Shown: positions 12,551 to 36,383 of the stretch, piece by piece | Position numbering within the stretch: position 1 is the stretch's first letter | Layout: every line of letters begins with the position of its first letter | IMG/VR virus record: IMGVR_UViG_3300025137_000006 | Location: 1-36,383 of that record | Reading direction: 5' to 3' (one strand) | Length of the DNA stretch: 36,383 nucleotides | Source of the DNA: a virus | Notes under the pieces: generated by a model | Databases searched by the model: none | What the model was told of the DNA's origin: nothing | The model's input: only the letters and a program-made list of their open reading frames with translations | Program-made: the position numbers and the translations under genes

Positions 12551-13369
12551 ATGATTATATCTCATAAAAATAAATTTACAGTATTAAGGGTTCCTAAAAC
12601 TGGAAGTACTAGTTTAGAGGCTTCTGTTCGTTTTTGTGGAGCTGTTCATGAAAATGATATTTGTTCTGAAACAGAAGATGCTTTTTTGCCAATTCAAAAC
12701 ATTCCTGAAACAGCAAAAGAACAATGCCGAAAACACGCTCTTATACTAGATATAATAGAGAAAAAAACAAAAAATAATTTAGAATTTAGTGAACAAGAAA
12801 AAGCATTAAAAAAGTGGAAAAGAAAATGGATAATTTTCATGGAACATAATACTCTAGATGATTGGTTTGAGGTTCCTTATTTTTCAAAATTAAATTTAAT
12901 TTCTAAAGAACAAGTTTTAGAATATAAACATTATGGTTTTATGCGTGATCCAATAAAAAGATACTTAAGTTCTTTTGTATTTCATCAGGGTTGTGCAAGT
13001 ATGTTTAAAAAACAAAACAGACCTATTACAATTGAATCATTCCAGGAGTTTACCTTAAAAGAACTTAAAAAACATCGTAATATTTTGTTTAGACCCCAAA
13101 AAGATTATTTTTATTTTGAAGGAAAACAAATCGCGGAACCACTTTTGTTTGACAATTGGGCTTTTGAGGCTTCTAGAATGATCAAAGAAATAGGATTTAA
13201 TCCATTGTCGGTTTATCCAAGATTTAAAGAAAAAGGAGGATTCCCAAATAAGACAAGAAATATAAAACCTTCGGTGGAAGAATGGGTGGACTCATGTGCT
13301 AAAATAAAAGATTATTTGCAGGAGCATTTTTTTGAAGATATAGAATTTTACCAAAGATACAAAAAATAA
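12551..13369 (+). CDS. Sulfotransferase-like protein 1
   Basis: A 272-residue protein with the two PAPS-binding signatures of sulfotransferases. The 5'-phosphosulfate loop is V-P-K-T-G-S-T-S-L (14-22). The 3'-phosphate site is R132-D-P-I-K-R-Y-L-S140-S-F. A His at 99 (F-M-E-H-N) could serve as the general base. Such enzymes move sulfate from PAPS to hydroxyls of sugars, lipids or protein tyrosines; the acceptor cannot be read from the sequence. The gene is more A+T-rich than the structural genes around it and looks like an inserted cargo gene. It ends 1 base before the giant repeat protein, so the two are probably translated together. A relative lies at 34219-34884. Confidence 0.82.
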   Translation: MIISHKNKFTVLRVPKTGSTSLEASVRFCGAVHENDICSETEDAFLPIQNIPETAKEQCRKHALILDIIEKKTKNNLEFSEQEKALKKWKRKWIIFMEHNTLDDWFEVPYFSKLNLISKEQVLEYKHYGFMRDPIKRYLSSFVFHQGCASMFKKQNRPITIESFQEFTLKELKKHRNILFRPQKDYFYFEGKQIAEPLLFDNWAFEASRMIKEIGFNPLSVYPRFKEKGGFPNKTRNIKPSVEEWVDSCAKIKDYLQEHFFEDIEFYQRYKK

Positions 13370-13370
13370 A

Positions 13371-16300
13371 ATGGGTTATACAAGTAGTAATTATACAACT
13401 TACGGCGGGGGCGGTGGCTACGGCGGTTATTACGGGTACGGCGGTAACGGTTATAAGACAGGTTATGCGGGTGATGGTAGTTTTTATGACGGAGTTGATT
13501 ACGTTATGGACGAATTCATGGTTTATGGCAATAACGATGGTTTTGGTAATTACGTTGATTTTGGTTATTTTGGGGATTTCTTTTCTCAAGATAGTTTTTA
13601 CAATGGCTACACTCTTCAATCTTACAGCGATGGTAGTGATGAGGTTGATTATTCCGATAATGACAGTTCAATTTATAGCGTATTTCGCCATCCTGACGCA
13701 ATGGAAGGCTCGTCCTGGAGGCAAAACAAACTTCCTCCTATTCAGAAAAAACGACAAAACGTAATGGATGGCACGCTTATGCGTGCTTTGATTCAAGGAG
13801 AAGGTAAGCAGTTTATACAAACAGTCTATGACGGTATAAAAGATCATCATCAAACCGATCCTAATTCTTTTGCGGCTAATACATGGCTTGCTCCAAATGG
13901 AAAAACATATGAACTTCCTCCTGCCAGCGAAGATGCTATAGGTACGGAAAACGAATTTGCTTCTCGTATTCAAAATTTTGTTGGTTCTTTTGACTACTTA
14001 AGGATGTATAATAGAAATGTTGCCCAGCGTCCTGAAGGAATGGGTGAAGATGGTGTTTTTGCAGGTTTTGTAGGAGAAAATCTTGATAGTAATAGTTATC
14101 AAGAATTTTTAAATTCGTCTAAATATTTTCCTCAAGTCTTAAATCAAGCTGGAGAAACTATATCTCGCGATGGCACAATTATTAGTTATCCTGATGGCTC
14201 TACCTTTAATGTTGATTTTGGCGATGTTACTAATTTTACTCCAGGAAATGCTAGCGGATTTGATGCAAACCAATTAAGTTTTGAAACAGATCCTAGTGCT
14301 CTTTCTGGTCAATACAGCAGATTTTACAATGGTTTTATAGATCAACACATAGAAAATTGGAGATTAGGAAATGATTGGACTACTTTAAGTATTGGATATG
14401 ACGGAAGTATTTATGGTGAAAATGGATACGACCAAAACGGTTATAACAGACAAGGACATGACAATGCAGGGTATGATAGAGATGGTTTTCATTACGAAGG
14501 ATACAATCAAAATGGATTAGACGCTAGTGGTGAAATTTGGCGTGATGAAGAGGGATACGATGTTCAAGGATATGATATTAGTGGATTTGATATACAAGGT
14601 CTTGACGTTAATAATCGTGATGTTAATGGATACGATTTAGATGGACGTGATTTTCTGGGTTATGATCGCGATGGATACGATGGAGGAGGACGCGATGCCT
14701 TAGGTTATGATCGTGCGGGTTTTGACAACACTGGATATAATGAGGACGGATATGATATAAATGGTTTAGACCGTTTAGGATTTAATGCCGATGGTTTTAA
14801 CCAAGGTGGTTTCAACTCAGGTGGTTTTAATACTGATGGATTTAACGAATCGGGTTTTAACGAATTAGGTTTCAATCTTGAAGGTTATAATGCAGGTGGT
14901 TTTGATTCTTTTGGTTATGATCTTGAAGGATACGATCAAGGGGGACGCGATGTATTAGGTTATGACCGTGACGGATATGATGTTTACGGATATAATGAAG
15001 ACGGATATAATTCCAATGGCTATGATAATTTAGGATTTAACGAACAGGGACTCAATGACATGGGATATAATTCCGATGGCTTTGATACTGATGGATATAA
15101 TTTAACTGGTTTTAATTCAGACGGTTACAATATTGACGGGTACAACCAAGGTGGTTATAATCCCGATGGTTACGATTCGGATGGATATAACGCTCAGGGT
15201 TTTAATGCTGAAGGTTATGACCGCGAAGGTTATGCAGAAAACGGCTTTAATAGCGATGGATATAATCGCCAAGGTTTTGATGCTGATGGATACAATGCCG
15301 ACGGTTTTAATGCTGATGGTTACAATGTTAACAATTTTGACAGGCTTGGATACAATTCCGAAGGCTTTAACAGTTTAGGATATAATTCCGACGGATTTGA
15401 TAAAGACGGATTTAATGCCGATGGTTTTAATGCTGATGGTTATAACAAAAATGGATATAATTCGGACGGATATAATTCTGACGGGTACAATCAAGGTGGA
15501 TATAATTCTGACGGTTTTAATAGCGATGGATATAATGCCTTAGGTTTTAATCCCGAAGGATATAATTCTGAAGGTTATGACAATTTAGGATATAATTCCA
15601 ACGGATTTAACTCTAGTGGTTTTAATGCTGATGGTTATAACAGCCAGGGATTTAATAATTTAGGTTATAACTCTAGTGGTTATGATTCTTTTGGTTATGA
15701 TTCCGAAGGATACGACCCGCAAGGAAGAGATTTATTAGGTTATGATGTTGAAGGGTACGATTCTTTTGGTTATGATTCCGAAGGATATGACAAACAAGGA
15801 TACGACAACTTAGGTTTTAATAGCAATGGATATAATGCCTCAGGTTTTGATTCTGAAGGATATACTCCTGAAGGTTATGACGATTTAGGTTACGATCTTG
15901 AAGGTTTTGATAGTTTAGGATTTGATAACACTGGATATAATATTCTTGGTTTTGACAATTTAGGATACGACAAAGACGGGTTTAATGATCTTGGTTTGGA
16001 CGACGATGGCTACGATTTAGATGGATTTAATTCTGCTGGTTTTAATTCAGACGGTCTAGACGAATTAGGTTTTAACATATACGGTTTTAACGAAAACGGT
16101 TTGAACATTGATGGTTATAACATTCAGGGTTATAATAGTGATGGTTTTAACATTGACGGATATAATGCTTCTGGATACAACGAACAGGGATTTAATGTTG
16201 ACGGATTTAATCCTGCTGGATTAGATGCTGAAGGATATAACCAAAACGGAGTTCGTCCCGATCCTGATGGTTATTGGTACACTAAGGATGGAGAAGTTGA

Positions 16301-19300
16301 CAATACATACAATGGTCAAGTTGATCCTTCTCTTGGAGGAAGTTATACGGATGCTAATGGCGTGGTTCAAGAGATCACTCCAGAAATCTATTCAGTTGCT
16401 GATCCTACTAGTCCAGTTGGAACTGGTGGTGGTAATGGCATTGATCCTAGTATAGATCCTGGCAATGTTCTTGATGATCCAGGTGGTGCTGGTGGTGCTG
16501 GTGGTGGTGATAATACGGGTGGTGGTGGTAGTGCCGAACCAGGCACATCTACTAATACAGGGACTCACACAATTGATTGGAATAAATTGCAAGAAATATC
16601 ATCCCGATATTTAGGAACTCGCAGACATTACAATGACTTCTTAAGAACCCAAGCGGGACAACAAGCCGCTACAAGTGTTGGTGACTTGTTAAATAAATAT
16701 ATGTCACCCTCGGAGGATGATCCATTAACAAGATCCGATGAGTTTATTAATAAAGTATTAAACATAGCAACTGCAAATGGTTTTCAGGGTTTGGATGCTT
16801 TTGCTTTATCAGTTAATTTATTAGAAGGAATTGTTAATACAGATTTGTTAGATGTTCCAAATATGGGATTTTTAATTAACAATATATTTCAATCCGCAGT
16901 TCCAGAAAATGTTATAAATCTACTAGAAGAAATTACTCCAGACTTCATGGAGAAAATGACTGGTTTGGATAATTTATTCCAAAACGGAAATTTACCTACT
17001 GATTATTTAGGTCAAAATTTTAATCTAAAACAATATTTGCTGGCTGACCTTGGTATGGCTAGTGAAGTTAATTATGGTCTTTTACCTGCTACTGAAAACA
17101 TTCAACAGCAACAAATTGATTTTGTAACTGAACTATTAGGACCAAATGTAGCCCCAGGATTTCTTGCGGACAATGATGTCACTGATTTAGATTTCTTTAA
17201 AAAGGCAATTGATTTAGCTGAAGACGGCGGATTAGGCGATGAATTTAATGAATTAGTTTCTCAAATTAACAACATTTATGTTGGGCAAGGCGGTGAGTAT
17301 ATAATGACTCAAGAGCAATTTGACGAATGGGAAGCCGCCTTAGGGGAGGAACCAAGCTTGTGGAACAAATTGACTACATTGACTGCGGACGGATTTGGTA
17401 CTTTGCTTCAACCCTTTGAGGGTATTGGAAATCTCATGGAAAGCATGGGTTTTTACCAGCAATATTACATGGGCGGGGCTTTGCCCACTATGGGTCTAAA
17501 TTTCTTAGGTGCCGCCGCAATGGGAGGTTTTCCTTTTACGGGCACATTGCTTAATGTATTAGGAGACGCATTGGCTCCTTCTGGACAAGAACTATCTGAT
17601 TGGCTTCAAGAAAGAGGCATTGATGCACATACCGCTACCGTTGCAGATATTAGTGCATGGTTAAATGAAAGTGATGTTAATTACAATACTATTCCTCCCT
17701 TTGATCCAATAACTGGAGAATTTGGAACAAGATGGAACGGTAGCTCCTCTACTGTAGATGATCTTGTAAGCGGTATAGATTTAACTGGTCCAACCCCAGA
17801 AGTAAATCTTGGAGGTGACAATACCCTAGTCACGGATTTAACCACTCCAACCCCAGAAGTAAATCTTGGAGGTGACAATACTTTAGTTACAGATTTAACT
17901 GATAATTTTAATTTTGATACAGATAATGATGGACTCTTTGATACATTTATATCAAATCTTGCTGATTTTGCGGGGGATAATACTTTAACATCTCAATTAA
18001 TTAACGGCGACCTTAGCATTACAGATGGTATATTAACGGTAGTTGATAATACAATAAGCGGCATCGTGGGCGATGGCGGTGGCACTGGCGGTGATGTCGT
18101 TGGCGGCGGCGGCGGTGGCGAAACTGTTGGCGGTGGCGAGGGTGGCATAAATCCCGTCCCAGAAGTCTTTCCGCCCAATCCAGAGATTGACGGCGGTGAT
18201 AATATAAATCCAGATCCTACGCCAGAAACAGGAACAAACCCAGGAACTATGCCAGAAACAACCACACCAGGAGCACCAGGATTAGGCGATGAATATGACA
18301 TTGGCTATGAGACGGCAAAATATTTAATTGGAGCAGAAGCCGCAGAACGGTTTAGAGGTCTAGGCATGGACAATGAGGAGTTAATGGCTCTTGTTGACAG
18401 TTATTCCTCCAGGGTGTCTCAGGATGAACTCGCTCGTTTAATTGAATTAAATCGTGGCGAACAAGCTGGAATTAACGAACTCCGCGATGTACAAAAAGCT
18501 TCCGACCTTGAGTTAATTGGTGATTACGGAACGCAATACGCCGATGCAATTCGGAGTCTTGATCCTACTTCAATGTCCATTTTGGGTGATCAAAAAGCCT
18601 TAAGCGATAGATTATACCGAAGAGCGGCTGGTGATTTAACTGCTGAAGAACAAACGGATGCCGAAGAGAGAGCTTTTGAAATAGCCGCTATGAGCGGAAG
18701 GACATTGGATTCTACACGAGTTGCTAATACTATAAGATCCGAAGAAGACTTTAGAACTGGTTTAGAAAATCGTGCACAACAAGCTGGAAGCCTTGGTTAC
18801 AATATGTCTAGAAATATTACGGGAGATATTCCTGGAATGCTTCTTGGCACGGGAGGTTCGCCTTATGGAACTGGAGTTGGGCAGGTTGTTCCACCTATGG
18901 GTATTGGTGACGCAATTTCCGCAGGGGTTAATTCTTACGCACAACAGCAAAACATACAAAAGGCAGAAGCACAGATTGCACAACTTCAACAATCACAAGC
19001 CGCCGCTGAAGCTAGTGGTGATTTAACTTCCGCCGAAAGATTTGCTAATACTATCTTAGAAATTCAACAAACTTTAAACATTGCAAATGCAACAATGGGA
19101 GTAATAGGGAATATTCCTGACACGATAAGTAATACTATGGATGCGGGTCGCAGTCTTCTTAACTATGGCTCTCAGGCAGTCAGTGGAATTACGAATTTCC
19201 TTACTGGAGGAAGCAGATCAACTCCTTCTGCTCAAACATTTGTTCCTGGTTCTAGTTTTAATGTTCCTTCAAGCACTTGGGTAAATAGCAGATATGAAGC

Positions 19301-19334
19301 TCCAACAAGTTTTGGTGGTATTACTTTTCCTTAA
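13371..19334 (+). CDS. Giant 1987-residue virion protein with 120 G-[YF]-[DN]-x-x pentapeptides
   Basis: This gene takes about 16% of the genome. Visible regions: (1) residues 1-100, Gly/Tyr/Asp-rich low complexity; (2) about 105-340, mixed, globular-looking; (3) 352-959, pentapeptides in strict register apart from one eight-residue unit (G-E-I-W-R-D-E-E); (4) about 960-1060, acidic then poly-Gly linker; (5) about 1065-1640, helical/mixed, with a hydrophobic stretch near 1373-1404, a duplicated 19-residue unit near 1475-1510 and another Gly linker near 1565-1590; (6) about 1645-1980, a helical domain with S-D-R-L-Y-R-R-A-A-G-D-L-T, which I know from podovirus virion proteins, and a Gln/Ala coiled coil near 1865-1885. 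It precedes two other large proteins, as internal/ejection proteins do. A fibre or ejected protein are both possible. Confidence 0.78.
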   Translation: MGYTSSNYTTYGGGGGYGGYYGYGGNGYKTGYAGDGSFYDGVDYVMDEFMVYGNNDGFGNYVDFGYFGDFFSQDSFYNGYTLQSYSDGSDEVDYSDNDSSIYSVFRHPDAMEGSSWRQNKLPPIQKKRQNVMDGTLMRALIQGEGKQFIQTVYDGIKDHHQTDPNSFAANTWLAPNGKTYELPPASEDAIGTENEFASRIQNFVGSFDYLRMYNRNVAQRPEGMGEDGVFAGFVGENLDSNSYQEFLNSSKYFPQVLNQAGETISRDGTIISYPDGSTFNVDFGDVTNFTPGNASGFDANQLSFETDPSALSGQYSRFYNGFIDQHIENWRLGNDWTTLSIGYDGSIYGENGYDQNGYNRQGHDNAGYDRDGFHYEGYNQNGLDASGEIWRDEEGYDVQGYDISGFDIQGLDVNNRDVNGYDLDGRDFLGYDRDGYDGGGRDALGYDRAGFDNTGYNEDGYDINGLDRLGFNADGFNQGGFNSGGFNTDGFNESGFNELGFNLEGYNAGGFDSFGYDLEGYDQGGRDVLGYDRDGYDVYGYNEDGYNSNGYDNLGFNEQGLNDMGYNSDGFDTDGYNLTGFNSDGYNIDGYNQGGYNPDGYDSDGYNAQGFNAEGYDREGYAENGFNSDGYNRQGFDADGYNADGFNADGYNVNNFDRLGYNSEGFNSLGYNSDGFDKDGFNADGFNADGYNKNGYNSDGYNSDGYNQGGYNSDGFNSDGYNALGFNPEGYNSEGYDNLGYNSNGFNSSGFNADGYNSQGFNNLGYNSSGYDSFGYDSEGYDPQGRDLLGYDVEGYDSFGYDSEGYDKQGYDNLGFNSNGYNASGFDSEGYTPEGYDDLGYDLEGFDSLGFDNTGYNILGFDNLGYDKDGFNDLGLDDDGYDLDGFNSAGFNSDGLDELGFNIYGFNENGLNIDGYNIQGYNSDGFNIDGYNASGYNEQGFNVDGFNPAGLDAEGYNQNGVRPDPDGYWYTKDGEVDNTYNGQVDPSLGGSYTDANGVVQEITPEIYSVADPTSPVGTGGGNGIDPSIDPGNVLDDPGGAGGAGGGDNTGGGGSAEPGTSTNTGTHTIDWNKLQEISSRYLGTRRHYNDFLRTQAGQQAATSVGDLLNKYMSPSEDDPLTRSDEFINKVLNIATANGFQGLDAFALSVNLLEGIVNTDLLDVPNMGFLINNIFQSAVPENVINLLEEITPDFMEKMTGLDNLFQNGNLPTDYLGQNFNLKQYLLADLGMASEVNYGLLPATENIQQQQIDFVTELLGPNVAPGFLADNDVTDLDFFKKAIDLAEDGGLGDEFNELVSQINNIYVGQGGEYIMTQEQFDEWEAALGEEPSLWNKLTTLTADGFGTLLQPFEGIGNLMESMGFYQQYYMGGALPTMGLNFLGAAAMGGFPFTGTLLNVLGDALAPSGQELSDWLQERGIDAHTATVADISAWLNESDVNYNTIPPFDPITGEFGTRWNGSSSTVDDLVSGIDLTGPTPEVNLGGDNTLVTDLTTPTPEVNLGGDNTLVTDLTDNFNFDTDNDGLFDTFISNLADFAGDNTLTSQLINGDLSITDGILTVVDNTISGIVGDGGGTGGDVVGGGGGGETVGGGEGGINPVPEVFPPNPEIDGGDNINPDPTPETGTNPGTMPETTTPGAPGLGDEYDIGYETAKYLIGAEAAERFRGLGMDNEELMALVDSYSSRVSQDELARLIELNRGEQAGINELRDVQKASDLELIGDYGTQYADAIRSLDPTSMSILGDQKALSDRLYRRAAGDLTAEEQTDAEERAFEIAAMSGRTLDSTRVANTIRSEEDFRTGLENRAQQAGSLGYNMSRNITGDIPGMLLGTGGSPYGTGVGQVVPPMGIGDAISAGVNSYAQQQNIQKAEAQIAQLQQSQAAAEASGDLTSAERFANTILEIQQTLNIANATMGVIGNIPDTISNTMDAGRSLLNYGSQAVSGITNFLTGGSRSTPSAQTFVPGSSFNVPSSTWVNSRYEAPTSFGGITFP
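14424..16247 (+). repeat. 1.8-kb array of 15-bp (pentapeptide) repeats
   Basis: From GGATAC at 14424 to 16247 the coding sequence repeats every 15 bases as GG(A/T)-TA(T/C) or TT(T/C)-(A/G)A(T/C)-NNN-NNN. I count 120 units of five residues plus one of eight, with no other break. Position 2 is mostly Tyr or Phe (sometimes Leu, Arg), position 3 Asp or Asn, position 5 often Asp, Glu, Gln, Gly or Leu. Codons vary between units (GGA/GGT, TAT/TAC), so DNA identity is much lower than protein identity. Longer units recur, such as the pair beginning near 15684 and 15759 (G-Y-D-S-F-G-Y-D-S-E-G-Y-D). Confidence 0.95.
17790..17900 (+). repeat. 57-bp tandem duplication within the giant gene
   Basis: The segment starting CCAACCCCAGAAGTAAATCT at 17790 recurs at 17847. 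It encodes two copies of a 19-residue unit (P-T-P-E-V-N-L-G-G-D-N-T-L-V-T-D-L-T). The copies differ by a few silent changes. Confidence 0.9.
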
Positions 19335-30517: not shown

Positions 30518-30994
30518 TTACTTAAGCACGTAAGTCCTGTCTCTCTCGTGCCCTCGGTAAGTGTCCCAAAGCTCCGCGTCATAGCCAAGCTCTCGGTTTT
30601 GGATGAAGTAGACCCAAGCATAAGTCGTGCTCCAGTCGTGCATTGATACGGGGATCACTTGGCGTTTGTAGAAGTCAGGGTTGCCCTCTAGGCAGTCCAA
30701 CTGCTGGAAGGTTTCGGGGGTTACGTCGTAAACCTCCAAGGTTACTTGCTCGCCTTCGCCCTCCATGTCGTGCAAATAGGGTAGCCCCTCAACCTCAAGT
30801 GGGTAGGCACTTTTTGTTTTGCCTGTCCCTATGAACTCGGAAGTCTCTAGCAAGCGGTGGTTTGAGTAGCCAGCCTTCAGGGTTCCATAAACGGCTACCC
30901 TGCGTTTCCTGTCTTCGGGGAAGCAGTTGGCTTTGGAATAAAAGATGCCGTCCCGTCTATGCCATTCTCCGAACTTGGAGACCCTACCCGTCAA
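30518..30994 (-). CDS. Gamma-glutamylcyclotransferase-like (AIG2/YtfP) domain, downstream half of an interrupted fusion
   Basis: Residues 33-140 carry the GGCT/AIG2 signature: V-A-V-Y-G-T-L-K-A-G-Y-S-N (33-45), a G-E-Q-V-T-L-E-V-Y-D-V strand (81-91) and L-D-C-L-E-G (99-104). Known members cleave gamma-glutamyl amides to 5-oxoproline. The first ~30 residues (S-K-F-G-E-W-H-R-R-D-G-I-F-Y-S) are not GGCT; they resemble the end of the GAT-II-like phage protein encoded just upstream. That frame is open and in phase back to the TGA at 31045-31043, and the only start between TGA and the GGCT core is a TTG (30994) without a ribosome-binding site. So this is either made by read-through or is the remnant of a 290-residue fusion. 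A terminator follows. Confidence 0.82.
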   Translation of the reverse strand: MTGRVSKFGEWHRRDGIFYSKANCFPEDRKRRVAVYGTLKAGYSNHRLLETSEFIGTGKTKSAYPLEVEGLPYLHDMEGEGEQVTLEVYDVTPETFQQLDCLEGNPDFYKRQVIPVSMHDWSTTYAWVYFIQNRELGYDAELWDTYRGHERDRTYVLK

Positions 30995-31042: not shown

Positions 31043-31399
31043 TCATTGGTTCGGCTGTATTCTTGGCAATACATTGTCAGCGATATCCGCAACGTCGCTC
31101 TGTGTGTCTGATCCGTAGCCGTCAACCGTGCCGTTACTATATATAACTGTGCGGTTGTCCACGTTGAATGGATGAACGTTGTTCATGTCAACGGCTCCAA
31201 CGGTCGCAAATCTAAAGTGAGCAACGATTGGTCGGTTCGTGTTTAGAATCCTGTTGACACTTGTATAGTCAAGGGTTCTGCGAGTCTTCCCGCTGTCTAA
31301 GTAGGTTACCCCGAAGCCGTGCGGGTTAATTACCTTTGCCCGCTCTATTATGTTTCGGGGAATTCTTTTGCCTTCTGGTTTATGTATGATTATACACAT
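31043..31399 (-). CDS. Class II glutamine amidotransferase-like domain (stops early)
   Basis: A 118-residue N-terminal-nucleophile domain. C2 would be the nucleophile after Met removal (M-C-I-I-I-H-K). The expected later motifs follow: N-P-H-G-F-G-V (25-31), H-F-R-F-A-T-V-G (61-68), N-V-H-P-F (74-78) and S-N89-G90-T, the oxyanion pair. Class II domains release ammonia from glutamine for an amide-forming partner; the amidoligase-like gene is next door. AAGGAAA precedes the ATG. The product is short for the family and ends at TGA (31045-31043). The next codon continues in phase into sequence (E-T-R-F-A-L-I-D, then G-R-V-S-K-F-G-E-W) that looks like its missing end. Confidence 0.8.
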   Translation of the reverse strand: MCIIIHKPEGKRIPRNIIERAKVINPHGFGVTYLDSGKTRRTLDYTSVNRILNTNRPIVAHFRFATVGAVDMNNVHPFNVDNRTVIYSNGTVDGYGSDTQSDVADIADNVLPRIQPNQ

Positions 31400-32092: not shown

Positions 32093-32971
32093 TCACGCCG
32101 TGCGTAAAACGGATTGCAATACGGGGGCATCATTCCCGAATCCGAAGTGATGCATGCGTTCTATTACATGTTGAATAACGGGGCGGAATTCGGCGTGCAC
32201 TGGTTTGATTGTGCCGTCAATGTTCGCCGTTGCTACCTTTAGAGCAATAAGCACGTTGTGCATTGGATTTTGATATGATTCCGTGCGGGGAATCTTTAAT
32301 CTACATCTTTCGGTCGTAGCTTGGCATAAAGCAATCCAACAAACGATTTTGCCGAAGTCTAGACTGCCCTGATGCTGGCGGAATTCAATAGTGCCGTGCT
32401 TGGCAAACGCCGTCAAGTTGACATTACGGTAGCGAAACTCTCCCCCCGTTCTAACCCGCCCCGAATCTTGGCAAATCGCCGTGTTTAACATAGAACGCAT
32501 TGAGCGGGAATAGGGCGAATCGCCCCGCCGTGATGGGGCAAGCATCTTATCAATGGCTTGCTCGCTCTTAACGGCGTGATTTACTACATACTGCAAACGC
32601 TTAGGCGTGTAGCCTTTAGCGTCACAATGCACATGAAGCCCGCATGTTTTCTTTACCTTTACGCCGTTGCGTTCTAGCACTTCCAACACCTTGAACAGTT
32701 GCTTGAATAGTTGAGCGGGTTGCAATGGCGGGCTAACATATTCACGCCCTACATAACCCCGTGGGGCGTTGCTATTGAGTGAGCAGTCAGTAATGCCTTT
32801 CCAGTGACGGCGGGTTGATGTATTCCAGTTTTCCCGTTGATAGGGCACGACCGCATTCAACTCTCTGTTGATTAGACTCTCTCTATCTTCGGGTATGTAG
32901 CATTCAATCTCTAGCCCGATCGTCTTAGGCTTCATTGTGAACGCTATTTCTTGTGCTGTTTCGTTATTCAT
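32093..32971 (-). CDS. Amidoligase-family enzyme (glutamine synthetase-like COOH-NH2 ligase)
   Basis: A 292-residue protein with the ordered motifs of the amidoligase_2 family: G-L-E-I-E (19-23), D-C-S-L (62-65), E77-Y-V-S-P (77-81), C-G-L-H-V-H-C-D (110-117), R-Y-R-N-V-N-L (180-186) and G-T-I-E-F-R-Q-H-Q-G (193-202). The acidic and His residues match metal/ATP ligands of the glutamine synthetase fold. The family is predicted to join a carboxyl group to an amine. Comparative genomics by Aravind and colleagues linked it in phages to class II amidotransferase and GGCT/AIG2 domains; both are the next genes in this direction except for one small ORF. The substrate is unknown. It is transcribed leftward from the 32.97-33.45 kb control region. 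Confidence 0.9.
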   Translation of the reverse strand: MNNETAQEIAFTMKPKTIGLEIECYIPEDRESLINRELNAVVPYQRENWNTSTRRHWKGITDCSLNSNAPRGYVGREYVSPPLQPAQLFKQLFKVLEVLERNGVKVKKTCGLHVHCDAKGYTPKRLQYVVNHAVKSEQAIDKMLAPSRRGDSPYSRSMRSMLNTAICQDSGRVRTGGEFRYRNVNLTAFAKHGTIEFRQHQGSLDFGKIVCWIALCQATTERCRLKIPRTESYQNPMHNVLIALKVATANIDGTIKPVHAEFRPVIQHVIERMHHFGFGNDAPVLQSVLRTA

Positions 32972-33457: not shown

Positions 33458-34039
33458 GTGATACCAGAATCAGACAAGGAATTGCTTATGAAGCAAATTT
33501 CCGAGCAGATACAAAAGGTGTCCTCCGACAAGGAGAGCATCCAGATTAAAAGCCTAAGTCGCCATGCCCCTGAAAAGGTGGCAGAAATACTTTATCTATT
33601 TAGTATGGGTAGTTCGCAGACTAAGATTGTTAAGAAATATGGATTTTCTAGAGCAACAGTCATTAGTGTATTAACTGATTACGCTGACGCTTTGGGTAAA
33701 TTCCGCGAATTGAGCGGTAGGCTGTCCGCTAAGAACTACATGAGCCTAAGTAGCCTTGAGGAAGATTTAATTGAAAAAGTCCGTGAACGAATGGACGAAG
33801 ACCCCGAAATGCAGGTTAGCTTTCGGGATTTAAAGGAACTGTCCATAGCTAAAGCTAATGCCAATAGAGAGGCTATGACGGCTAGGGGAGAAGCTACCAA
33901 TATTACCGAAGGCAGAAAAGTCTACACCAAAGAGGATTATGACGATATTGTTAAATCCGCCAAAGATCGTATTAAAAAAGCAAAAGTAATTAATGCTGAA
34001 ATTGTAACGCAGGAGGACAATGGACGAGGAGATTCTTGA
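33458..34039 (+). CDS. terS: Terminase small subunit (HTH DNA-binding)
   Basis: A 193-residue protein from the GTG at 33458. An in-frame ATG at 33488 has AAGGA 7 bases upstream and is the better supported start (183 residues). A helix-turn-helix is visible at about 53-74 (Q-T-K-I-V-K-K-Y-G-F-S-R-A-T-V-I-S-V-L), followed by long helices (L-S-S-L-E-E-D-L-I-E-K-V-R-E-R-M) and an acidic/basic tail. Small terminase subunits bind the packaging site through such an N-terminal HTH and oligomerise by helices. Position as the first rightward gene and near terL agrees. An ordinary regulator with the same HTH cannot be excluded. Confidence 0.72.
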   Translation: MIPESDKELLMKQISEQIQKVSSDKESIQIKSLSRHAPEKVAEILYLFSMGSSQTKIVKKYGFSRATVISVLTDYADALGKFRELSGRLSAKNYMSLSSLEEDLIEKVRERMDEDPEMQVSFRDLKELSIAKANANREAMTARGEATNITEGRKVYTKEDYDDIVKSAKDRIKKAKVINAEIVTQEDNGRGDS

Positions 34040-34226
34040 TAAGCTAAAAGAGATACTTGGGGAACATTATCCTAATTACTGCATTATTGTGCTGGATGAA
34101 GAAGGAGAAGTCCAATCCGAATACACAACAGTTTCAGTAGCTAGAATGCTTATTAGAGAAGCTTCGCTAGATTTTAGAGATGACAACGTAGAAGTTATAT
34201 GGGATATAGACGATACCGATGATTAA
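34020..34226 (+). CDS. Small acidic protein, unknown
   Basis: A 68-residue, highly acidic protein with an AGGAGG ribosome-binding site (34011-34016), overlapping terS by 20 bases and the sulfotransferase-like gene by 8. It starts M-D-E-E-I-L-D-K-L-K-E-I-L-G-E-H-Y, has a Y-C-I-I-V-L-D-E-E-G-E strand pair and ends in D-I-D-D-T-D-D. The tight overlaps link it to both neighbours. Function unknown. Confidence 0.65.
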   Translation: MDEEILDKLKEILGEHYPNYCIIVLDEEGEVQSEYTTVSVARMLIREASLDFRDDNVEVIWDIDDTDD

Positions 34227-34884
34227 CCATAAAGACAAAAAACTAATATTATTGCCGCCCAAAACAGGCACTTCTTCTTTGGAAAGTTTGTTTACAAAGA
34301 ATTTTTGTGGATACAGTGCGTATACCCGATACCACCCATTAAGGCACATTCATATGTATCTTGATGAATCTATTTTTGCTTACGGAATAAAAGATATAGA
34401 AAACTGGGAAATATATCAAACAGCAAGAAATCCTATGGATCGGATTATTTCTGCATTCTTGCATCAAAAATTTATATTACGAGAATTAGGCAAAAAAATG
34501 AAAATCCTAGAGTTTGAAGATTTTGTAGAAACGGTAAATCAACATCATCATTTATTGCCAGAAAAAGAAAGAACTTTCTCTAGTTCAGTATTATGCAATG
34601 ATAAAATAATTCCCTCCAACAATAAATGTTCGGCAGGAGTTCGGTTTTATGTTCCGCAAACAACCTGGGCTGATCCTAGCAAATATAATGTAAAGTACAT
34701 TAAATTAGGACAAGATAATTCTAAATTATATGCAGAAATGGGTTTGCCGTCAAATTTAAAATTACCGCATTTAAACAAAAGCAGATTAGACAAATCTCGC
34801 CATCAAAATATACATACTTATAGAACAAAAGAAATTATACAATCATTATATAAAAATGATTTTTTAAAACTAAATTATGAATAA
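34219..34884 (+). CDS. Sulfotransferase-like protein 2
   Basis: A 221-residue relative of the protein at 12551-13369, but shorter. The 5'-phosphosulfate loop is L-P-P-K-T-G-T-S-S-L (12-21). The 3'-phosphate site is T-A-R70-N-P-M-D-R-I-I-S78-A-F-L. A His-rich segment follows the loop (Y-H-P-L-R-H-I-H-M-Y, 38-47). The acceptor is unknown. It starts 8 bases inside the previous gene and ends 8 bases inside the hydroxylase-like gene, so the three are translated as a block. The DNA is strongly A+T-rich toward its end, in contrast to terS, suggesting acquired cargo placed between terS and terL. Confidence 0.8.
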   Translation: MINHKDKKLILLPPKTGTSSLESLFTKNFCGYSAYTRYHPLRHIHMYLDESIFAYGIKDIENWEIYQTARNPMDRIISAFLHQKFILRELGKKMKILEFEDFVETVNQHHHLLPEKERTFSSSVLCNDKIIPSNNKCSAGVRFYVPQTTWADPSKYNVKYIKLGQDNSKLYAEMGLPSNLKLPHLNKSRLDKSRHQNIHTYRTKEIIQSLYKNDFLKLNYE

Positions 34885-35506
34885 TCAAAAAATGAATAAA
34901 CCTAATTCAACATTAGCAGATATAAAAAGACGGTTACCTTTTAAAATTCAAGAAATTGGCAGTTATGATTCTGCCGACCTTCTTCGTAGATTGGAAAAAA
35001 TGGATCCTGAATGCTGGTTAGAAGAATCATGGAGGCAAAAAACATTTAAAGCTCACTCAAGTACGGATGCTTTAAACATTATGTGGAACAAGGAATGCCT
35101 AAAAGACAACACTAAGGGCGAAAAACATAAAAAAAATTACAATTTTTTAAATTTTGATAAAGTCCTTGAAGATTTAAAACCAATATATGAAAAAAAATTT
35201 GGCTCAGGAGATTTTCACCGAGTATTAATTACGCGACTAAAGCCAAAATCTAGTATAGCCGTTCATGCTGATCAAGGCATTGCTTTAATGCAAGGGCGAC
35301 GAACTCATATTCCTTTAACAACTAACAAGGACATTGTTTTTAAATGTGGACAAGATTTACAATCGTTTCATTTAGAAGTTGGCAATGTATATGAGTTAAA
35401 TAACGCTAAAAAACACGCAGTAAGTAACCCAACAGATGAACATAGAATTCATTTAATCATTGATTGGCTACAAAATAAAGGATTTTGGGAAAAAATGAAT
35501 GATTAA
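34877..35506 (+). CDS. Aspartyl/asparaginyl beta-hydroxylase-like 2-oxoglutarate oxygenase
   Basis: A 209-residue Fe(II)/2-oxoglutarate-dependent dioxygenase. Residues in order: H130-A-D132 (first iron ligands), R142-T-H144-I-P-L, H180-A-V-x-N (third iron ligand) and R190-I-H-L-I-I-D-W (2-oxoglutarate arginine and end strand). This fits the Asp/Asn beta-hydroxylase family, whose best-known member hydroxylates Asp/Asn in EGF-like domains; other members act on small molecules, so the substrate is open. It overlaps the sulfotransferase-like gene and terL by 8 bases each and is A+T-rich like the former. Together they look like a two-enzyme modification insert. Confidence 0.85.
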   Translation: MNNQKMNKPNSTLADIKRRLPFKIQEIGSYDSADLLRRLEKMDPECWLEESWRQKTFKAHSSTDALNIMWNKECLKDNTKGEKHKKNYNFLNFDKVLEDLKPIYEKKFGSGDFHRVLITRLKPKSSIAVHADQGIALMQGRRTHIPLTTNKDIVFKCGQDLQSFHLEVGNVYELNNAKKHAVSNPTDEHRIHLIIDWLQNKGFWEKMND

Positions 35507-36383
35507 TTTTACGGAGCATCCAATACTCAAGCCACCTACGGACGAAGAAATCGTAGCTCTAGCTGAAGTTGATCCAACACTGTTAGCTGATCTGCACGAA
35601 GCTCACGAAAATCTTATTCGTGCTAGTATAGAAGATCCGCTTCGTAGTGGTTTTGATCTTCAGGGATGGGGTCGCATTAGGGACTCTTTAAATAAATACA
35701 ATGAAGTTATTACTTTTGGGGGAAACCGAAGTGGAAAAACTACTGGTTGTGCCAAATTAATAATGGAAGCGGTTATTAACAATAAAGATGGGCACATAGT
35801 TTGTTTCTCTCAAAATGCCGACACTTCAGTAAAAGTTCAGCAAGCTGCTATATGGGAAATGATGCCCAAAGAATTTAAGAAAAAAACTAAAAGCATTGAA
35901 GGCTATATTAATTTTAGTATGCAAAATGGGTTTACTGGTTCTAGTTTCATATTTCCTGACACTAGGACTAGAGTGGACTTTAAAACCTATACACAGTTCA
36001 GTAACAATCAGACTATCCTTGAGGGATTTGAGTTTGGATTCAAAAACAACCCAGAGCTAAATATAGGGGCTTGGTTAGATGAATATCTTGGCGATGCTTC
36101 GTTAGTTAATACTTTGCGATTTCGTTTAGCTACAAGAGATAGCAAAATGTTGCTTGGATTTACGCCAATTGATGGGTATACATCTTTTGTATCAGAATAC
36201 TTGAAGGGTGCACAAACAATACAGACCCGTAAGGCATCTCTATTAAAAGATAGAGAACTTCCCGTCCAGCAATACAGTCCGAATCGTGATGCTGGAGTAG
36301 TTTATTTGCATTCTGATGAAAACCCATTTGGGGGATATGACCGAATAAAGAAAGATTTGCAACAATCCACTGATGAGCAAATT
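35499..36383 (+). CDS. terL: Terminase large subunit, N-terminal half (continues at 1-870)
   Basis: Starts at the ATG at 35499, 8 bases before the upstream stop, and runs off the window edge. Walker A is F-G-G-N-R-S-G-K80-T-T (73-82), Walker B G-A-W-L-D194-E195 (190-195), and a coupling motif L-G-F-T-P-I follows at 219-224. This is the ATPase that pumps DNA into the head. The 262 codons to 36284 join in frame with base 1, giving 551 residues in the closed genome. The last 99 bases repeat 1-99 and must not be counted twice. Confidence 0.95.
   Translation, partial: MINFTEHPILKPPTDEEIVALAEVDPTLLADLHEAHENLIRASIEDPLRSGFDLQGWGRIRDSLNKYNEVITFGGNRSGKTTGCAKLIMEAVINNKDGHIVCFSQNADTSVKVQQAAIWEMMPKEFKKKTKSIEGYINFSMQNGFTGSSFIFPDTRTRVDFKTYTQFSNNQTILEGFEFGFKNNPELNIGAWLDEYLGDASLVNTLRFRLATRDSKMLLGFTPIDGYTSFVSEYLKGAQTIQTRKASLLKDRELPVQQYSPNRDAGVVYLHSDENPFGGYDRIKKDLQQSTDEQI
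36285..36383 (+). repeat. 99-bp terminal direct repeat (same as 1-99)
   Basis: Bases 36285-36383 match 1-99 without a difference, and the terL reading frame runs through the join. This is the overlap left by an assembler on a circular (or circularly permuted/terminally redundant) molecule. The unique genome length is 36,284 bp. Since the repeat lies inside terL, it is probably not the physical packaging end. Confidence 0.95.

Follow-up and report, generated by a model that had tools for sequence, protein, structure and literature searches.

The stretch of DNA analyzed here, referred to throughout as the window, is the complete 36.4-kb virus record IMGVR_UViG_3300025137_000006 (36,383 nucleotides), which has a 99-nt terminal repeat. 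Near its right end, five genes on the plus strand run from a terS-like gene to terL. The terS-like gene (33458..34039), the conserved flank of the locus, is so named only for its position and a weak, sub-cut-off match to HTH_7 (PF02796); it has a tblastn match in 74 of the 86 sequences tested, a set that includes the window and its identical copies L001 and L003. It is followed by orf68 (34020..34226), a conserved 68-aa gene, which marks the left boundary of the cargo slot described below; by ST2 (34219..34884), encoding a predicted PAPS-dependent sulfotransferase of 221 aa; by ABH (34877..35506), encoding a predicted Fe(II)/2-oxoglutarate hydroxylase of 209 aa; and by the N-terminal part of terL (35499..36383; phrog_2, terminase large subunit, E 5.5e-6). 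Because of the terminal repeat, terL runs from 35499 over the end of the record and is completed at positions 1-870.

Both ST2 and ABH are open throughout, and both lie between the terS-like gene and terL. The genes are joined by three overlaps of 8 nt each (orf68/ST2, ST2/ABH and ABH/terL). The element ATGATTAA is present on the plus strand both where the orf68 stop overlaps the ST2 start (34219..34226) and where the ABH stop overlaps the terL start (35499..35506). An earlier note on this DNA had described two A+T-rich genes overlapping each other and terL by 8 bases, which the ORF coordinates and base composition confirm; the overlap of orf68 with ST2, and the place of orf68 between terS and terL, are absent from that note. 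The GC content of the cassette is 0.308, compared with 0.401 for the window, and none of 702 segments of the window (1,288 nt, 50-nt step) was equally low. Taken alone, ST1 (819 nt), the first sulfotransferase gene of this genome, has a GC content of 0.287, below that of the cassette. Promoter-like sites showed no excess (7, with 9.0 expected), and terminator-like sites (3, with 1.3 expected) included none at the cassette borders.

The assignment of ST2 as a sulfotransferase follows from Pfam, sequence motifs and VIA-align fold comparison taken together. The protein matches Sulfotransfer_2 (PF03567) with 25 bits, where the cut-off is 22, and phrog_3347 with E 2e-10; at E values up to 1, its only Pfam matches are PF03567 and PF00685. 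Two of its motifs, PKTGTSS (aa 14) and RNPMDRIISAF (aa 70), are taken to be the PAPS-binding 5'-PSB (PKTGxxS) and 3'-PB (RxPxxRxxSxF), respectively. The motif core is invariant across seven copies of the protein, down to 37% identity. The fold model has a pLDDT of 82. All 50 VIA-align matches listed for it are sulfotransferases, with Z scores of 6.5-7.7 (middling by the tool's own note); the matches are tied, so that glycan, small-molecule and protein types are not separated by fold, and no TPST entry is among the 50. Foldseek found nothing for the model at an E value of 0.001 or lower, and a sequence-profile search of PDB chains was negative up to E 1. Members of PF03567 are mainly carbohydrate sulfotransferases. 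The ST2 relatives in L078 and L091 score below the PF03567 cut-off, and the ST2 of genome G027 was missed by PF03567 and counted from a 57% BLAST match.

For ABH, Asp_Arg_Hydrox (PF05118) is the sole Pfam match at E up to 1, with 48.5 bits and a cut-off of 22.6; in NCBIfam it reaches nonproteinogenic amino acid hydroxylase (E 0.01), only at a score well short of the cut-off. The residues H130-x-D132, H180, R190 and R142-x-H144 are all invariant across seven PF05118 sequences, and the catalytic residues remain so across copies down to 27% identity. By family precedent, H130, D132 and H180 would be the metal ligands and Arg the 2-oxoglutarate contact. The model (pLDDT 86.7) has 4p7w as its best Foldseek match (E 3.7e-9), with which the HxD...H metal site and the distal Arg align. 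Thus, with Pfam cut-offs passed, motifs present and folds in agreement, both enzyme assignments of the earlier note, a sulfotransferase and a PF05118-type hydroxylase, are borne out.

The nearest solved relatives of ABH share its fold at an identity of at most about 20%: L-proline cis-4-hydroxylase (4p7w), a nucleoside-antibiotic beta-hydroxylase (7v4f), proline 3-hydroxylase (1e5r) and human AspH (5apa). VIA-align ties the four types at Z 14-15, with best matches spanning 150-173 residues, while Foldseek ranks proline and nucleoside-pathway hydroxylases first and also matches AlkB-type enzymes. The sequence profile does order them: proline cis-4-hydroxylase (E 1e-10), nucleoside-pathway beta-hydroxylase (6e-6), proline 3-hydroxylase (1e-4) and AspH (7e-3). 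When the row of phage DC33 was removed from the profile, the first three kept the same order with weaker scores, and AspH was absent at E up to 0.1. AspH is not known to have the Asp of the HxD metal site, in which ABH differs from it. The TPR substrate-binding region of AspH is likewise missing from ABH, which has 209 aa in all, the oxygenase fold spanning the whole protein.

We scanned 2.9 million viral contigs with ST2 as the query and found relatives encoded on seven: L003 (identical to this phage), L083, L084, L085, L078, L090 and L091. ABH lies directly downstream of ST2 on five of the seven (L003, L083, L084, L085 and L091), or on four of six if L003 is left out. In L083, L084 and L085, both genes occupy the same site in the same order as in the window, at 51-65% amino-acid identity. 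Contig L091, which encodes PhoH and a phrog_224 single-strand DNA-binding protein, comes from an unrelated phage: of 41 window proteins, only ST2 (43%), ABH (51%) and an exonuclease-like protein (30%) have matches there, and the pair follows two phrog_26746 ORFs. Since the pair is found even on this contig, ST2-ABH is, it would appear, a portable two-gene unit; the known carriers are few, and several are fragments. This recurrence also supports the suggestion in the earlier note that the two enzymes act together. Near the pair in L091 is a further ORF (L091:2453-3526) with a sulfotransferase-like GHGKTGTSYIQS motif, for which neither Pfam (E up to 0.05) nor PHROG (E up to 0.01) gave a match.

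The two remaining contigs have ST2 with intact motifs and no ABH, and no PF05118 gene was found elsewhere in these records (38 kb for L078 and 22.5 kb for L090). In L078, a 29-nt stretch located between ST2 and terL agrees with the 3' end of the L084 ABH gene at 22 of 29 positions. This score is reached by 15 of the 15,133 windows of that locus, a count that equals the overlapping windows containing one such place and so implies a single place. A remnant of this kind, at one place in the locus, is most simply accounted for by deletion of ABH in L078. A search for PF05118 in 22 chosen records matched six, the five pair carriers and the distant L087; the carriers were included when the set was chosen, and six of 22 is no frequency. 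Scans of 84,980 species genomes, by a method that detects close relatives only, gave 64 pattern matches for ABH and 142 for ST2, none of which was confirmed, and neither ST2 nor its relative in L091 had a match among the phage records searched. In L084 and L085, the only pair of loci with dS below 1 in both genes (other pairs had dS above 1 or not computable), dN/dS is 0.10 for ABH and 0.31 for ST2, indicating purifying selection. By their invariant residues, fold models and dN/dS, both enzymes look active.

The site itself exists without the cassette. L004, which after the identical L003 has the terL most similar to that of the window (88%), has neither ST2 nor ABH. Its orf68 (93% identical) overlaps terL directly by 8 nt, and a single copy of ATGATTAG stands at this empty site, compared with the ATGATTAA at both edges of the insert in the window. 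Empty sites were also found in L048, L051, L053 and L062, so that the cassette lies between genes that are adjacent in relatives. Phage C75C1 (terL 73%) has, by position, only a single gene between its terS-like gene and terL. We fetched 80 loci by terL similarity, of which 70 passed the filter for a readable terS-terL interval. The median interval is approximately 230 nt, and it reaches at least 500 nt in 10 of the 70 loci, L003 among them. Other occupants were identified as well: an MT-A70 methylase (L061:1216-1719) lies between the terS-like gene and terL, and small ORFs occur there too. Given these other occupants, the variation in interval length and the empty sites, the place between orf68 and terL is an exchangeable slot for cargo, and ST2-ABH is one such cargo, present or absent at one site; its GC content, far below that of the window, agrees with this. 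The earlier description of the enzyme genes as splitting the terminase pair stands as far as ST2 and ABH do lie between terS and terL, but it was overstated, as relatives have a 68-aa-like gene there and intervals of 500 nt or more occur in the loci counted above.

In a terL tree, carriers are six of 84 tips in at least three lineages, each with cassette-free neighbours. The six are no frequency, as four of them came from the ST2 searches; of the 80 loci selected solely on terL similarity, L003 and L078 were the only two with ST2. The tree leaves out L003, which is identical to the window, and its tips scored as lacking the cassette include contigs that start inside or near terL. Support for the L084 subclade is low (0.11), and we therefore claim separate lineages and no order of gain or loss. 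Three further loci from a motif scan (L117, L121 and L122) were dropped because they match none of ST2, ABH, terS, orf68 or terL.

In L084 and L078, orf68 is 94% and 88% identical, respectively, to that of the window, against only 48-49% for terS. For example, genome G027 (L084) differs widely from the window in terS (49%) and portal (42%) while retaining orf68 at 94% and terL at 78%. This pattern suggests that orf68 and terL have moved between otherwise distant genomes. For orf68 itself, the gap between 88-94% and the terS values would fit either very strong conservation or recent exchange along with terL. PADLOC gave a weak match of orf68 to 'Tin' (E 0.003), whereas ST2, ABH and ST1 matched none of its families up to E 0.1.

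Two other genes of the window had been linked to the cassette. A giant protein of 1,987 aa (13371-19334) contains 105 G-[YF]-[DN]-x-x units, mostly five residues apart, and no Cys. ST1 (12551-13369), the first sulfotransferase gene, ends 1 nt before it. ST1 resembles ST2 mainly over the first 31 residues (48%), and in 32 records it has no clear relative, with two weak matches that both fall inside ST2 genes. The earlier note had suggested that ST1 could form a dispersed modification system with ST2 and ABH; in those 32 records, it was not found in other carriers.

We examined whether the repeat family accompanies the enzymes, as the earlier note had proposed. Among 22 records, the giant repeat family is present in one, the window, and the pair in five. 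Fragments of 4-13 kb make up three of the four other carriers (G029, G031 and G032), and thus the absence of the repeat counts mainly in G027 (33 kb), with further weight from two records that have ST2 only, G024 (38 kb) and G028 (22.5 kb). None of these three longer records has an ORF of at least 60 aa with five or more G-[YF]-[DN]-x-x units. With the full-length giant protein as query, a protein search of 32 records matched its C-terminal part only, in three cassette-free records. The Pfam family Decapeptide (PF25296) matches the whole giant protein with 52.4 bits (cut-off 45) and, among the 22 records, matched only the window, every single match there being below cut-off; it is a loose marker, since sub-cut-off matches occur in six of 14 control genomes. 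A tblastn search with the repeat part against phage records returned 11 records; in the three inspected (Acba_23, RapA and LS06-2018-MD04) the match is antisense to the annotated gene, so these matches were not used.

We also compared the ORFs of four long carriers, the window included, with those of seven long non-carriers (blastp, E 1e-5, which misses remote relatives). Only ST2 and ABH, of the window proteins, recur in another long carrier and have no match in any of the seven non-carriers; thus none of the window's own proteins is seen to accompany the pair as a substrate. Further genes missing from non-carriers are common to the sister records G024 and G027, one of them, for a protein of 264-325 aa, being present also in G028 but absent from the window. 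The EGF-like consensus of AspH is CxD/NxxxxY/FxCxC; it occurs in none of the 20 plus-strand window proteins scanned. Tyrosines with at least three acidic residues within five positions make up 37 of 127 in the giant protein, compared with 20 of 184 in 19 other window proteins, and this enrichment is the best remaining point for the earlier reading that the enzymes modify the virion.

Marine (PMC10580990), underground-estuary (PMC10829341) and glacier-ice (PMC8290583) phages or viral contigs are reported to have sulfotransferase genes; the first of these papers states that the function of such genes in phage genomes is unclear. Like members of PF03567 and of phrog_3347 (phage 'Galactose-3-O-sulfotransferase'), ST2 has PAPS-type motifs and the corresponding fold. 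Asparaginyl beta-hydroxylases are reported in cyanophages (PMC3037559) and in Limnohabitans phage DC33 (PMC12195039); these and the gene of ctXG1253 are, like ABH, single PF05118-type genes among phage genes. The annotated neighbours of the hydroxylase genes in DC33, PfAn1, ctXG1253, S-SM2, Bellamy, Itty13 and LilMcDreamy include no sulfotransferase, but most of them are labelled only as hypothetical. ABH is 28% identical to the DC33 protein and 32% to that of LilMcDreamy; the other five regions were matched only with the DC33 protein as the query. The DC33 gene (L002:5959-6585, Pfam-confirmed) lies right after terL, that of ctXG1253 (L125:3998-4552) is, by annotation, two genes from terL, and the weak match in LilMcDreamy (L115:2639-3742, E 3e-3) is right before terS. 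Among the open-licence papers in the matches listed by our literature search, none names a hydroxylase and a sulfotransferase as a phage gene pair, and none describes a phage pathway of hydroxylation followed by sulfation. The cassette resembles phage morons and auxiliary metabolic genes in being non-core, between conserved genes, absent from close relatives and of different GC content; it differs in being joined to its neighbours by overlapping codons, with no promoter excess and no terminator-like site seen at its borders.

The pair, its presence or absence at one site, the empty site, the ABH-remnant site and the intact catalytic residues are read directly from the sequences. The reading we prefer, to which we give an even chance, is that ST2-ABH is a late auxiliary pair that modifies a host-derived acceptor, either a glycan or lipid or a small molecule, the substrate class being predicted. 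Through its overlapping start and stop codons, the cassette is probably expressed as part of the late operon, so that late in infection the two enzymes would be made together with the packaging proteins. ABH, with Fe(II), O2 and 2-oxoglutarate, would hydroxylate the acceptor, and ST2 would sulfate a host-derived acceptor with PAPS that is presumably supplied by the host. The acceptor would most likely be either a small molecule or a glycan or lipid of the cell surface. Given that two phages retain ST2 but not ABH, and that no other PF05118 gene was found in their records, ST2 is probably the core activity, and ABH an accessory that extends or tailors it. The likely benefit would be an altered receptor or surface charge that controls superinfection or re-adsorption to debris; neutralization of a host compound would be an alternative benefit. 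The earlier note had offered host surface molecules or a small metabolite as its second choice, and this is now the favoured reading.

The first choice of that note was a virion modification system. In such a system, the giant G-[YF]-[DN]-x-x protein or another virion protein would be beta-hydroxylated on Asp/Asn by ABH and sulfated on Tyr by ST2 together with ST1. The late-operon position of the pair, the 105 units, the commoner acidic surroundings of Tyr in the giant protein, ST1 directly upstream of the giant gene and, in L091, the position after the phrog_26746 ORFs all agree with it; indeed, such a place suits virion proteins equally well, PF05118 includes protein hydroxylases, and AspH is tied with the others by structure. 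However, the repeat was found in one of 22 records and the pair in five (three of the other four being fragments), no structural gene of the window tracks the cassette, and the giant protein has neither Cys nor the AspH consensus. ABH is also without the TPR part of AspH, and its nearest solved relatives by sequence are enzymes of free amino acids or nucleoside pathways, which, with an ST2 family that is mainly carbohydrate-directed, largely places the closest relatives of both enzymes where the earlier note had said they would contradict it. The giant repeat protein is probably not the target of the pair, and we consider virion modification unlikely overall. A decoration of phage DNA bases by oxygenase and sulfotransferase would fit the position beside the terminase, the AlkB-type fold matches of ABH, and the sulfotransferase-based nucleotide modification that, according to PMC10829341, has been reported in phages. 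Against this, PF05118 is the only Pfam family that ABH matches at E up to 1, and proline and nucleoside-pathway hydroxylases head both its profile and its Foldseek ranks, so that we regard DNA or nucleotide modification as highly improbable.

Two further explanations concern how, and whether, the enzymes work together. ABH could make a hydroxyl that ST2 then O-sulfates, an order compatible with either substrate reading. The tight pairing of overlapping genes, also in an unrelated phage, is what such a pathway would produce, while ST2 with intact motifs and no ABH in L078 and L090 argues against it: the acceptor there would have to be another one, unless a hydroxylase comes from the host or is encoded in the remainder of the genome. 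We see sequential action as less likely than not, and a strict hydroxylate-then-sulfate order as conceivable in the pair carriers only. It is somewhat doubtful that the cassette as a whole is a dedicated, horizontally exchanged phage pathway in which hydroxylase and then sulfotransferase act on one acceptor and place a hydroxylated, sulfated and thus strongly charged group on host surface molecules or virions late in infection; if it is, the loss of ABH with ST2 kept would show that the pathway can be shortened. The genes may also be non-adaptive passengers in a permissive slot, one that takes other cargo such as the MT-A70 methylase and the small ORFs, and the unusual GC content would agree. 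Yet catalytic and motif residues are invariant down to 37% (ST2) and 27% (ABH) identity, purifying selection is seen in the single measurable pair, and the same gene pair recurs, all of which makes the passenger explanation very unlikely.

A fixed two-gene unit narrows the question of what phage sulfotransferases do, as ST2 and ABH probably have the same class of substrate. The unit lends itself to testing on its own, and the natural empty, full and half-deleted sites provide matched comparisons. The packaging genes, moreover, seem to hold a slot in which cargo can be exchanged. Upstream of terS, the window has a cluster of three other genes (30518-30994, 31043-31399 and 32093-32971 (-)) that are gamma-glutamyl cyclotransferase-like (PF06094), class-II glutamine amidotransferase-like (sub-cut-off) and an amidoligase (PF12224). 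In C75C1, annotated amidoligase and gamma-glutamyl cyclotransferase genes likewise precede the terS-like gene.
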